A stretch of DNA of 64,000 nucleotides from Sipunculus nudus (taxonomy: Eukaryota > Annelida > Sipuncula > Golfingiida > Sipunculidae), in NCBI GenBank assembly GCA_026874595.1, contig CM049311.1, positions 63,079,453-63,143,452 on the forward strand, read 5' to 3'. Made by a program: the position numbers and the translations under genes. Position 1 is the stretch's first letter. Each line of letters opens with the position of its first letter. Shown piece by piece: positions 12,092 to 62,325 of this stretch. The notes below the pieces were generated by a model. It saw only the letters and a list, made by a program, of their open reading frames with translations. It did no database searches and had not been told where the DNA came from.

Positions 12092-12163
<72 letters not shown>
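12092..12163. repeat. (TA)n microsatellite
   Basis: About 36 TA units. An ~86-bp insert carrying the hammerhead motif follows, then a second short TA tract at 12250-12260. Confidence 0.97.
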
Positions 12164-12164
<1 letters not shown>

Positions 12165-12188
12165 CTCTGAAGAAAAACAACACTGTTA

Positions 12189-12236
12189 ATTCACAACAGA
12201 CTGTTTCACGGGATGCGACCCGATCATCAGGTGAAT
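12189..12236 (-). ncRNA. Hammerhead ribozyme-like motif
   Basis: Read on the minus strand from 12236 down to 12189, all hammerhead parts occur in order. Stem I 5' strand is ATTCAC (12236-12231). The core is CTGATGA (12230-12224). Stem II is CGGG/CCCG (12222-12219 with 12212-12209), with a six-base loop and a T/T mismatch at its base. Then GAAA (12207-12204, the last A opening stem III), a 3-bp stem III (ACA/TGT) with a three-base loop, a cleavage triplet GUU ending at 12195, and the stem I 3' strand GTGAAT (12194-12189), perfectly complementary to the 5' strand. The tiny stem III fits the small hammerheads known from Penelope-like retroelements, which often act as dimers. No Penelope reverse transcriptase is visible nearby, so this would be a solo or heavily truncated copy. 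The motif is seen directly; activity is inferred. Confidence 0.72.
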
Positions 12237-12429
12237 GTGGTTAGAATCCATATATATATAATGCTTATGTACTATTATTTTCATGAATTCACTTCCTTTG
12301 TGCAAAATAGTGTTGAGAATAGAACAGTAATGTTTTTCATTAGTCAAACTTTAGGATTGTGGGGCTAGCTGCGCCAGAATTCCCATTCATCAAGAAAATT
12401 GCCTTGTGCGCAATTTTACTTGGTTGTTT

Positions 12430-13640: not shown

Positions 13641-13644
13641 GTCC

Positions 13645-15176
13645 TTTACCACTGACACTAGAACCTTTACCGCTGACACTAGAACCTTTACCACTGACAC
13701 TAGAACCTTTACCAGTGACACTAGAACCTTTACAACTGACACTAGAACCCTTACCAATGACACTAGAACCTTTACCACTGTCACTAGAACCTTTACCAAT
13801 GACACTAAAACCTTTACCACTGACACTAGAACCTTTACCAGTGACACTGGAACCTTTACAACTGACACTAGAACCCTTACCAATGACACTAGAACCTTTA
13901 CCACTGGCACTAGAACCTTTACCACTAACACTAGAACCTTTACCACTAACACTAGAACCTTTACCACTGACACTAGAACCTTTACCAATGACACTAGAAC
14001 CTTTACCACTGACACTAGAACCTTTACCACTGACACAAAAACCTTTACCACTGACACTAGAACCTTTACCACTGACACTAGAACCCTTTACCACTGACAC
14101 TAGAACCCTTACCACTGACACTAGAACCTTTACCACTGACACTAGAACCTTTACCACTGACACTAGAACCTTTACCACTGACCCTAGAACCTTTACCACT
14201 GACACTAGAACCCTTACCACTGACACTAGAACCTTTACCACTGACACTAGAACCCTTACCACTGACACTAGAACCTTTACCACTGACACTAGAACCTTTA
14301 CCACTGACCCTAGAACCTTTATCACTGACACTAGAACCTTTACCACTGACACTAGAACCTTTACCACTGACACTAGAACCCTTACCACTGACACTAGAAC
14401 CCTTACCACTGACACTAGAACCCTTACCACTGACACTAGAACCTTTACCACTGACACTAGAACCTTTACCAATGACACTAGAACCTTTACCACTGACACT
14501 AGAACCTTTACCAATGACACTAGAACCTTTACCACTGACACTAGAACCCTTACCAATGACACTAGAACCTTTACCACTGTCACTAGAACCTTTACCAATG
14601 ACACTAAAACCTTTACCACTGACACTAGAACCTTTACCACTGACACTAGAACCTTTACCACTGACACTAGAACCCTTACCACTGACACTAGAACCTTTAC
14701 CACTGACACTAGAACCTTTACCACTGACACTAGAACCCTTACCGCTGACACTAGAACCCTTACCGCTGACACTAGAACCTTTACCGCTGACACTAGAACC
14801 TTTTCCGCTGACACTAGAACCTTTACCGCTGACACTAGAACCTTTACCGCTGACACTAGAACCTTTACCGCTGACACTAGAACCCTTACCACTGACACTA
14901 GAACCTTTACCACTGACACTAGAACCTTTACCACTGACACTAGAACCTTTACCACTGACACTAGAACCTTTACCACTGACACTAGAACCTTTACCACTGA
15001 CACTAGAACCTTTACCACTGACACTAGAACCTTTACCGCTGACACTAGAACCCTTACCGCTGACACGAACCTTTACCACTGACACTAGAACCTTTACCAC
15101 TGACACTAGAACCTTTACCACTGACACTAGAACCTTTACAACTGACACTAGAACCCTTACCACTGACACTAGAACT
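13645..15176. repeat. 21-bp minisatellite, ~73 copies
   Basis: Head-to-tail copies of a 21-bp unit containing ACTAGAACCTTTACC and ACTGAC. The period is a multiple of three and four of six frames lack stops, so open frames of up to 482 codons appear on both strands (TDTRTFT and LTLEPLP repeats on plus, VSVVKVL and SGKGSSV repeats on minus). These lack a start context, unique flanks or any splice link, and single-base indels (14089, 15066) switch frames, so I treat them as non-coding. Unit variants recur in the same order around 13748-13815 and 14547-14615, evidence of block duplication inside the array. Confidence 0.95.
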
Positions 15177-57734: not shown

Positions 57735-60700
57735 CGTAGCGAAGTCCAGACATTCTTACTCAGCCTACAGACCACACGTACCCGTCTTTCTCCGCCTACA
57801 GACCACACAAACCTGTCTTACTCCGCCTACAGACCACACATACCCGTCTTTCTCCGCCTACAGACCACACATACCCGTCTTTCTCCGCCTAAAGACCACA
57901 CATCCCCGTCTTACTCGGCCTACAGACCACACAAACCTGTCTTACCCCGCCTACAGACCACACATACCCGTCTTTCTCCGCCTACTGACCACACAAACCT
58001 GACTTACTCCGCCTACAGACCACACATACCCGTCTTTCTCCGCCTACAGACCACACATACCCGTCTTACTCCGCCTACAGACCACAAAACCTGTCTTACT
58101 CCGCCTACAGACCACACACACCCGTCTTACTCCGCCTACAGACCACACACACCAGTCTTACTCCGCCTACAGACCACACATACCCGTCTTTCTCCGCCTA
58201 CAGACCACACAAACCCGTCTTACTCCGCCTACAGACCACACATACCCGTCTTTCTCCGCCTACATACCACACATACCCGTCTTTCTCCGCCTACATACCA
58301 CACATACCCGTCTTACTCCGCCTACAGACCACACATCCCCGTCTTACTCCGCCTACAGACCACACAAACCTGTCTTACCCCGCCTACAGACCACACATAC
58401 CCGTCTTTCTCCGCCTACAGACCACACAAGCCCGTCTTACTCCGCCTACAGACCACACATACCCTTCTTACCCCGCCTAAAGGCCACAAATACCCGTCTT
58501 ACTCCGCCTACAGACCACACAAACCTGTCTTACCCCGCCTACAGACCACACATACCCGTCTTTCTCCGCCTACAGACCACACAAACCTGTCTTACTCCGC
58601 CTACAGACCACACATACCCGTCTTTCTCAGCCTATAGACCACACATACCCGTCTTTCTCCGCCTAAAGACCACACATACCCGTCTTACTCCGCCTACAGA
58701 CCACACAAACCTGTCTTACCCCGCCTACAGACCACACGTACCCGTCTTTCTCCGCCTATAGACCACACATACCCGTCTTTCTCCGCCTAAAGACCACACA
58801 TACCCGTCTTACTCCGCCTACAGACCACACAAACCTGTCTTACCCCGCCTACAGGCCACACATACCCGTCTTTCTCAGCCTATAGACCACACATACCAGT
58901 CTTTCTCCGCCTAAAGACCACACATACCCGTCTTACTCCGCCTACAGACCACACAAACCTGTCTTACCCCGCCTACAGACCACACGTACCCGTCTTTCTC
59001 CGCCTATAGACCACACATACCCGTCTTTCTCCGCCTAAAGACCACACATACCCGTCTTACTCCGCCTACAGACCACACAAACCTGTCTTACCCCGCCTAC
59101 AGACCACAATACCCGTCTAAATCCGCCCAAGGTATTGCGTCCCTCCTCCCTCCTCTTTTCTAAAGTCCGCCTACAGACCACATATACCCGTCTTACTCCA
59201 CCAATAGACCACACATACCCGTCTTACTCCGCCTACAGACCACACATACCCGTCTTACTCCGCCTTTAGACCACACATACCCGTCTTTATCCGTCTATAG
59301 ACCACACATACCCCTCTTACTCCGCCTATAGACCACACATACCCGTCTTACTCCGCCTACAGACCACACATACTCGTCTTTCTCCGCCTACAGACCACAC
59401 ATACCCGTCTTTCTCCGCCTACAGACCACACAAACCTGTCTTACTCCGCCTACAAACCACACATACCCGTCTTTCTCAGCCTATAGACCACACATACCCG
59501 TCTTACTCCGCCTACAGACCACAAAACCTATCTTACTCCGCCTACAGACCACACATACCCGTCTTCCTCCGCCTACAGACCACACATACCCGTCTTTCTC
59601 CGCCTACAGACCACACAAACCCGTCTTACTCCGCCTACAGACCACACATACCCGTCTTTCTCCGCCTACATACCACACATCCCCGTCTTACTCCGCCTAC
59701 AGACCACACAAACCTGTCTTACCCCGCCTACAGACCACACATACCCGTCTTACTCCGCCTACAGACCACACAAGCCCGTCTTACTCCGCCTACAGACCAC
59801 ACATACCCGTCTTACCCCGCCTAAAGGCCACAAATACCCGTCTTACTCCGCCTACAGACCACACAAACCTGTCTTACCCCGCCTACAGACCACACATACC
59901 CGTCTTTCTCCGCCTACAGACCACACAAACCTGTCTTACTCCGCCTACAGACCACACATACCCGTCTTTCTCAGCCTATAGACCACACATACCCGTCTTT
60001 CTCCGCCTAAAGACCACACATACCCGTCTTACTCCGCCTACAGACCACACAAACCTGTCCTACCCCGCCTACAGACCACACGTACCCGTCTTTCTCCGCC
60101 TATAGACCACACATACCCGTCTTTCTCCGCCTAAAGACCACACATACCCGTCTTACTCCGCCTACAGACCTCACAAACCTGTCTTACCCCGCCTACAGAC
60201 CACACGTACCCGTCTTTCTCCGCCTATAGACCACACATACCCGTCTTTCTCCGTCGAAAGACCACACATACCCGTCTTACTCCGCCTACAGACCACACAA
60301 ACCTGTCTTACCCCGCCTACAGACCACAATACCCGTCTTTCTCCGCCCAAGGTATTGCGCCCCTCCCCCCTCCTCTTTTCTAAAGTCCGCCTACAGACCA
60401 CATATACCCGTCTTACTCTGCCAATAGACCACACATACCCGTCTTACTCCGCCTACAGACTACACATACCCGTCTTACTCCGCCTATAGACCACACATAC
60501 CCGTCTTTCTCCGTCTATAGACCACACATACCCGTCTTACTCCGCCTATAGACCACACATACCCGTCTTACTCCGCCTATAGACCACACATACCCGTCTT
60601 ACTCCGCCTACAGACCACACATACCCGTCTTTCTCCGCCTACAGACCACACATACCCGTCTTTCTCCGCCTACAGATCACACAAACCTGTCTTACTCCGC

Positions 60701-62325
60701 CTACAGACCACACATACCCGTCTTTCTCAGCCTATAGACCACACATACCCGTCTTTCTCCGCCTAAAGACCACACATACCCGTCTTACTCCGCCTACAGA
60801 CCACACAAACCTGTCTTACCCCGCCTACAGACCACACGTACCCGTCTTTCTCCGCCTATAGACCACACATACCCGTCTTTCTCCGCCTAAAGACCACACA
60901 TACCCGTCTTACTCCGCCTACAGACCACACAAACCTGTCTTACCCCGCCTACAGACCACACATACCCGTCTTTCTCAGCCTATAGACCACACATACCCGT
61001 CTTTCTCCGCCTAAAGACCACACATACCCGTCTTACTCCGCCTACAGACCACACAAACCTGTCTTACCCCGCCTACAGACCACACGTACCCGTCTTTCTC
61101 CGCCTATAGACCACACATACCCGTCTTTCAGCGCCTAAAGACCACACATACCCGTCTTACTTCGCCTACAGACCACACAAACCTGTCTTACCCCGCCTAC
61201 AGACCACAATACCCGTCTAACTCCGCCCAAGGTATTGCGCCCCTCCCCCCTCCTCTTTTCTAAAGTCCGCCTACAGACCACATATAACCGTCTTACTCCG
61301 CCAATAGACCACACATATCCGTCTTACTCCGCCTACAGACCACACATACCCGTCTTATTCCGCCTATAGACCACACATACACGTCTTTCTCCGTCTATAG
61401 ACCACACATACCCGTCTTACTCCGCCTATAGACCACACATACCCGTCTTACTCCGCCTACAGACCACACATACCCGTCTTACTCCGCCTACAGACCACAC
61501 ATACCCGTCTTTCTCCGCCTACAGACCACACATACCCGTCTTTCTCCGCCTACAGACCACACATACCGTCTTACTCCGCCTATAGACCACACAAACCCGT
61601 CTTACTCCGGCTATAGACCACACATGCCCGTCTTTCTCTGCCTACAGACCACACATGCCCGTCTTTCTCTGCCTACAGACCACACCTACCCGTCTTTCTC
61701 CGCCTATAGACCACACCTACCCGTCTTTCTCCGCCTATAGACCACACCTACCCGTCTTTCTCCGCCTATAGACCACACATACCCGTCTTTCTCCGCCTAC
61801 ATACCACACATACCCGTCTTACTCCGCCTATAGACCACACATACCCGTCTTACTCCGCCTATAGACCACACATACCCGTCTTACTCTGCCTATAGACCAC
61901 ACATACCCGTCTTACTCCGCCTACATACCACACATACCCGTCTTTCTCCGCCTTTAGACCACACATACCCGTCTTACTCCGCCTACAGACCACACATACC
62001 CGTCTCACTCCGCCTAAAGACCACACATACCCGTCTTTCTCTGCCTACAGACCACATATACCCGTCTTTCTCCCTCTTTTGACCACACCTACCCGTCTTT
62101 CTCCCCCTATAGACCACACCTACCCGTCTTTCTCCGCCTATAGACCACACCTACCCGTCTTTCTCCGCCTGTAGACCACACATACCCGTCTTTCTCCGCC
62201 TGTAGACCACTCATACCCGTCTTACTCCGCCTATAGACCACACATACCCGTCTTTCTCCGCCTACAGACCACACATACCCGTCTTTCTTCGCCTACAGAC
62301 CACACCTACCCGTCTTTCCGACGCC
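57735..62325. repeat. 31-bp minisatellite, ~4.6 kb, with higher-order units
   Basis: About 145 head-to-tail copies of a 31-bp unit containing CCGCCTACAGACCACACATA and CCCGTCTT(A/T)CT. A distinct spacer (CAAGGTATTGCG ... CCTCCTCTTTTCTAAAGT) interrupts it near 59128, 60348 and 61228, marking higher-order blocks. A relative of the spacer (CAAGGTGTTGCGCCCGAGG) lies just left of the array at 57685. Because 31 is not a multiple of three, only short repeat-derived frames occur (for example 60171-60434 minus). No gene is present. Confidence 0.95.

Follow-up and report, generated by a model that had tools for sequence, protein, structure and literature searches.

A 64,000-nt stretch of the genome of Sipunculus nudus (assembly GCA_026874595.1, contig CM049311.1, positions 63,079,453 to 63,143,452; hereafter the window) carries, on the minus strand of 12164–12249, a short block that contains the parts of a type I hammerhead ribozyme and lies inside a TA microsatellite. 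Read on this strand the block is GGATTC...CTTCAGAGT; it is flanked by (TA)36 on one side and by ATATATATAT on the other, as a preliminary description made from the letters alone had seen it (~86 bp between two TA tracts). The same hammerhead was found in the tandem pseudo-long terminal repeats (pLTRs) of a ~2.9-kb Penelope-like element (PLE) of the same genome. Element positions are numbered from +1, the A of ATTCTAACC; the predicted ribozyme cut follows +53, the proximal 3′ end is +84 and the tail end is +148. The features at the locus are as follows.

12164–12249, minus strand: whole short insertion, GG not encoded by the element and then +1 to +84 of the Penelope-like pLTR (matches the pLTR copies of locus L047 from A+1 to AGAGT).
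12248–12249, minus strand: GG ahead of A+1, absent from the full-length element, which reads TTC and then ATTC across this point; proposed to be cap-derived (comparison with the full-length element).
12231–12236, minus strand: stem I, 3′ strand AUUCAC, pairing with GUGAAU (architecture scan).
12224–12230, minus strand: catalytic core CUGAUGA (architecture scan).
12209–12222, minus strand: stem II, CGGG-UCGCAU-CCCG, with a U.U pair flanking it on the core side (architecture scan).
12204–12207, minus strand: core GAAA, the final A of which also opens stem III (architecture scan).
12195–12204, minus strand: stem III ACA/UGU, closed by a 3-nt loop and followed by U17; cleavage predicted between 12195 and 12194 (architecture scan).
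12189–12194, minus strand: stem I, 5′ strand GUGAAU, the first bases of 31-nt inserts found elsewhere (sequence).
12164–12168, minus strand: AGAGT, putative proximal reverse-transcription start and tail-less 3′ end (copy ends).
12092–12163, no strand: (TA)36 microsatellite, the target on the 3′ side of the insertion (repeat scan).
12250–12260, no strand: short TA tract on the 5′ side of the insertion (sequence).

The hammerhead parts stand in order along the block (stem I, CUGAUGA, stem II, GAAA, a 3-bp stem III and U17), with the conserved type I core CUGANGA / GAA / UH and three helices present. A scan for the full architecture, with thresholds of at least 5 bp for stem I, at least 3 bp for stem II with one mismatch permitted at its base and at least 3 bp for stem III, gave one match in the window; in 200 first-order Markov windows there was no match. 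The bare CUGAUGA...GAAA spacing occurred once, against 1.4 expected by chance. The complete architecture is not a chance match. At the level of sequence, the hammerhead motif is confirmed where the preliminary description had placed it, with its core elements in order on the minus strand, a 6-bp stem I and a 3-bp stem III.

The source genome (1.43 Gb in 153 contigs) was found to hold 1,761 exact copies of the 28-nt hammerhead core (917 + 844), compared with none for the reversed control, and some of the exact cores on contig C1 were spaced ~2.87–2.93 kb apart. Locus L047 consists of tandem units of pLTR with hammerhead, leader, open reading frame (ORF) and pLTR. An interruption splits the ORF of its first unit into 215 and 455 amino acids; that of its second unit has 690 amino acids and that of the copy at L060 has 700. 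The final pLTR of the L047 array ends in AGAGT(TA)n, at the same terminal base as the window copy, and the window copy is identical to the L047 pLTR copies from A+1 through AGAGT. Since the window sequence equals the PLE pLTR, its identification as a solo pLTR-derived insertion of this element is supported by the sequence comparison.

The identity of the parent element was judged from its ORF and from its architecture. Reverse-transcriptase (RT) motifs were recognized by eye (FDIVDFYPSI, YRDDG and a FLD...PYRKP...YIH..HPP stretch), as was a C-terminal IVY...YIG...R...H stretch resembling GIY-YIG. Profile searches contributed little: Pfam RVT_1 matched a hand-chosen ORF fragment at E 0.0034, below its cut-off, the whole PLE protein had no RVT match in Pfam, and Pfam GIY-YIG (PF01541) had no match to the PLE ORF. 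The ORF had almost no matches in Pfam or PDB, scans of viral contigs found no relative, and BLASTP and hhalign comparisons with another PLE of the genome were uninformative. The architecture is that of a PLE in three respects, namely tandem pLTR-bearing copies, an optional 3′ tail together with head-to-head inverted pLTRs, and an AT-rich target, with (TA)n or AT-rich DNA flanking the 3′ side of the 40 sampled copies and 30 query loci described below; a preference of Penelope elements for simple AT-rich targets is described in excerpts of PMC3846280. Among 4,152 candidates, the 64 element copies that were scored were 99–100 % identical, had no internal stop and in many cases lay in arrays. Satellite-like arrays of the PLE, with copies ~2.92 kb apart, were observed at C17:42720341-42859899 (the largest seen) and C12:49451850-49506965.

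In the genome-wide Pfam search for GIY-YIG there were 12 matches, none in the PLE and nine in open frames of 621–637 amino acids on contigs C61–C89. By eye these frames look like bacterial UvrC, and one that was read was ~35–40 % identical to its 80 best GTDB matches. The assembly seems, from these UvrC-like frames, to include unknown bacterial associates or contaminants.

The ends were mapped in 40 copies, taken from the first 46 listed places with an exact core and locally aligned to the element; the remaining six had been fetched earlier (3779272, 3780541, 10063416, 31948152, 31951026 and 31953893 on C1). All 40 sampled copies had their 3′ ends at two sites 64 nt apart, adjoining TA or AT-rich DNA: 27 were short (alignment end 86 or 88, counting bases common to the TA flank) and 13 were tailed (147–152). 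This two-site pattern is the Penelope "tail" signature. Genome-wide there were 933 exact short ends on TA and 838 matches to a pattern for the tail end; in 17 of the first 100 such matches listed, the sequence is the element's own continuation. The 59 listed matches to the short query were 98–100 % identical. One short insert recurred with an identical TTATAT flank at seven listed places (C1:68281268, C1:110652363, C2:59772268, C6:17043571, C8:12888382, C8:29488880 and C11:51570217), as if one insertion had been carried along by another repeat, and these were treated as a single event.

At their 5′ ends, short copies cluster at one A (+1) within an initiator-like TCATTCT, often after one or more Gs that the element does not encode. 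The initial query itself held GG and was biased for G, so the signal was re-measured with a G-free pattern and in the 40-copy sample. In that sample, six copies belong to inverted pairs (four loci); among the non-inverted copies, 16 have their start in the interval from −14 to +12; in four it is precisely +1, and in three of these four a G precedes it. The TA-anchored 5′ pattern, which is blind beyond +2 and counts overlapping registers, had 525 matches, the first 100 of which represent 33 distinct places. Of these places, 29 read as A+1 starts, with G before +1 in nine, A in three and T in 17; the full-length element has C. An extra 5′ G is a cap signature in other retroelements. The window copy carries GG without template ahead of A+1, and this together with its sharp ends suggests a complete short complementary DNA (cDNA).

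Several counts weigh against such a reading of the 5′ ends. Copies that reach more than 20 nt upstream of +1, 18 of the 40 sampled, are ordinary longer pLTR or PLE pieces, and among the 16 short starts 12 fall elsewhere than +1, several of them compatible with TA microhomology. Where the preceding base is T (17) or A (3), the A at +1 may belong to the TA tract, and only the nine G cases are clear. Three of these nine read GTG(G), which could also arise if the cDNA folded back onto its own GTGG.

The longer upstream sequence in those 18 copies, and the partial scatter of 5′ ends, are what would be expected of decayed or recombined remnants, formed by deletion between the pLTRs of full-length PLEs or by random 5′ truncation. 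Set against this are the restriction of all 40 sampled 3′ ends to two sites, the clustering of 5′ ends at A+1 with non-templated G and the 98–100 % identity among the 59 listed matches, and we consider a remnant origin unlikely. The preliminary description had proposed a solo Penelope-type terminal remnant. The solo terminal piece stands, given the identical hammerhead in the PLE pLTRs and the same AGAGT(TA)n end; as judged from its sequence, the window copy is probably not a decayed remnant.

A separate non-autonomous retrozyme, with circular RNA processed by the hammerhead and machinery borrowed from the PLE, would also be short, non-coding, of high copy number and equipped with a type I hammerhead, and retrozymes are described in a mussel in excerpts of PMC7229834. 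It is nevertheless a very improbable source of these copies. None of 30 loci of ~3 kb each had two same-strand exact cores, and in place of tandem hammerhead repeats of 170–400 bp there were units of 84 or 148 nt. Furthermore, the short copies extend across the cleavage position, as would not be required of a circle that the hammerhead had opened, and their sequence equals the PLE pLTR.

Head-to-head junctions of two copies were found at 99 places, 50 of which were listed and read. Eleven of these had an insert between both A+1 positions; three of the eleven, which hold sequence from further upstream in the element, were excluded. Among the bases adjoining the remaining eight inserts, 12 of 16 were the expected cap C (left) or G (right), with a binomial probability of 4e-5 at p=0.25. 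Here too a reservation applies, as two of the eight inserts are GTG and GTGG, for which fold-back is possible; without them the count is 10 of 12 ends. A single junction sequence accounted for 18 of the 50 places read, through either repeated formation or amplification of one pair. All 12 distinct head-to-head loci among the 30 short-query loci combined one tail-less and one tailed arm, a count from which two more loci were excluded because the query that gave them already held both arms. The 14 distinct pairs examined were bare, and both arms end in TA or AT-rich DNA. In excerpts of PMC3846280, the tail is optionally present on one of the inverted pLTRs and palindromic junctions are read as self-priming.

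Taken together, we consider it probable that the block is a short insertion by a PLE that targets TA microsatellites, and that the solo hammerheads are complete short by-products of internal initiation; our confidence was lowered slightly because part of the G signal could also be due to fold-back. In the proposed pathway, RNA polymerase II would start at A+1, placing the hammerhead at the 5′ end of a capped messenger RNA (mRNA). The element's protein would cut a (TA)n tract and prime reverse transcription within the 5′ leader, at an internal site containing UA, and copying would run to the cap, just upstream of the ribozyme, leaving the extra G or Gs. Priming by both target strands would give two cDNAs joined head to head. 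The solo hammerheads would then be complete short products, mostly of uncleaved RNA, whereas a hammerhead cut after +53 would remove the cap, and inserts starting at +54 suggest that such cutting may occasionally occur in vivo. Excerpts of PMC11167929 describe, for a green-anole PLE, reverse transcription from two internal sites with both strands cut and extended, and hammerhead mutants that still insert in vitro, cleavage not being needed for insertion.

The catalytic activity of the motif was considered separately. The catalytic fold was not favoured by structure prediction, which counts against a functional ribozyme: for the 84-mer the hammerhead fold was at −8.2 kcal/mol compared with a predicted minimum of −18.7 (~10 kcal/mol above it), and the 86-mer folded no better than shuffles (z −0.27). 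The core tertiary contacts lie outside the energy model used for this comparison. A structural switch between the hammerhead and a reverse-transcription-start fold was considered as well and dropped, because the 86-mer folds no better than shuffles. An Rfam search, whose failure the preliminary description had named as a point against its claim, gave no match of the hammerhead models to the window motif at the gathering score or at E<=10. We take this to be a weak test and not decisive, because at the gathering score Rfam also missed the hammerhead-like motifs, identified by eye, of two other PLEs in the genome; at E<=10 it missed that of one of these two, L142.

The U.U pair at the base of stem II, regarded in the preliminary description as the blemish of this copy, was present in all five aligned copies, four of them from full-length elements, and is included in the 28-nt core counted genome-wide. 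Its first U was replaced by C at one of 30 loci (L020). From its presence in the aligned copies and the counted core, the U.U is, on sequence grounds, a family feature rather than damage to the window copy. The loop base of stem III varies across copies (CAGTCTG, CAGACTG, CAGGCTG) with the stem constant, and the T and A forms would be fully complementary between two molecules. Two further PLE families with a DVESLYTNIP-type RT (L142, ~527–565 on the plus strand, and L044, minus strand, offset ~1867) carry, by eye, hammerhead-like CUGAUGA/CUGACGA...GAAAGCUCGUG.

Possible traces of cleavage were sought among the starts of the copies. Short inserts GTGAATTAACAGTGTTGTTTTTCTTCAGAGT with TA at both sides begin exactly at the predicted cut at L051, L052 and L054 (31 nt, from the cut to AGAGT); L053 has the cut-site start with a different 3′ end, and at L055 the unit with this start is preceded by another element piece. 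These starts are few, which limits their weight: five clean copies and one mutated copy compared with ~1.1–1.5 per position (Poisson 0.004–0.017), counted in one listing taken whole (83 rows) and the first 100 of 149 in another. The mutated copy (C3:54513606) starts at the cut but carries changes and was counted apart; C8:64110760, which had been scored as starting at +1, appears to be mutated and was not counted, nor were C16:22458367 (L057) and C6:34162952 (L058), which are ambiguous by 1–2 bases. Their weight is further reduced by two other start hot spots with six copies each, at −20, with AT microhomology, and at −15, mainly in mutated copies. The inserts that start at the cut are suggestive, as a weak sign, of cleavage in vivo. 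The green-anole hammerhead is inactive without protein according to excerpts of PMC11167929, and by analogy the ribozyme described here, if active, is likely to be protein-assisted or dimeric.

A hammerhead-like sequence without catalytic role, kept by its overlap with the PLE promoter and reverse-transcription start, would also be compatible with internal initiation by the PLE as the origin of the solo copies. It would fit a fold that is not of minimum energy, the missing Rfam match and the insertion of the anole hammerhead mutants in vitro (PMC11167929, in part). It fits less well with the presence of all core nucleotides and three helices, an architecture without match in 200 random windows, with the inserts that begin at the cut and with the recurrence, judged by eye, of hammerhead-like motifs in two further PLEs of the genome. 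On balance, the absence of a catalytic role appears rather unlikely.

If the origin of the solo copies as complete by-products of the PLE is true, dispersed copies would be explained by internal initiation and a cap-proximal start, and their 5′ ends would be a genomic readout of ribozyme cutting in vivo, countable in any genome with such copies. A bolder extension is offered tentatively, as one we hold to be possible but doubtful. Of the dispersed minimal hammerheads, which number in the thousands in animal genomes, at least part might be complete cDNAs from PLE initiation in a capped-mRNA leader, with the hammerhead as a self-decapping switch: the cut after +53 would remove cap and leader, stop translation and shrink the product to 31 nt, and the genome would count both states as +1 and +54 starts.

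Elsewhere in the window, 13643–15175 is a 21-bp tandem array (73 copies, 94 % matches), and 57754–62316 is occupied by a long minisatellite of 31-bp repeats, whose higher-order unit measures 124 bp and whose GC skew is strong (about −0.6).

Excerpts of PMC7761336, PMC11167929 and PMC3846280 show that PLE pLTR hammerheads, dispersed minimal hammerheads, tails and inverted pLTRs are already known. A limited literature search turned up no description of PLE 5′ ends with a cap-like G, none that treats solo hammerheads as short cDNAs that are complete, and none of PLEs that insert specifically into TA microsatellites; a DNA transposon targeting TA microsatellites is described in an excerpt of PMC4486113. 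The kind of element is known; what is new, and can be tested, is where the solo copies are likely to come from.

A close resemblance, as far as the excerpts of PMC11167929 go, is to Poseidon of Anolis carolinensis. Like it, the element has the tandem pLTR-ORF-pLTR order, a hammerhead close to the start of reverse transcription, an optional tail that results from the use of two internal start sites, AT-rich targets and both strands extended. It differs in that the hammerhead lies in the 5′ leader (the L060 ORF begins at +233 from A+1) rather than over the start codon, in that UA in the start sites matches the (TA)n target, a homology to the cut DNA that the anole start lacks, and in that the tail is 64 nt compared with 30–40 in the anole. 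Likewise, the Penelope families of Adineta vaga (PMC3846280, in part) have head-to-head inverted pLTRs with palindromic junctions, one of the pLTRs optionally carrying a tail, but the pairs there lie on either side of complete or partial elements and are very low in copy number, while the 14 pairs here are bare. Animal retrozymes lacking long terminal repeats, in the portion of PMC7229834 that describes them, are also short repeats of invertebrate genomes, non-coding and equipped with a type I hammerhead; theirs are ~170–400-nt tandem repeats for which circular RNA was seen, whereas the units here, known from DNA alone, are 84 or 148 nt plus G or Gs, solo or inverted, and equal a PLE terminus. 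The dispersed minimal type I hammerheads of PMC7761336 share the short stem III and the dispersal, and some lie in PLE pLTRs; their role is called unknown in the excerpts of that paper, while for the copies described here the ends are mapped to specific initiation and start sites.
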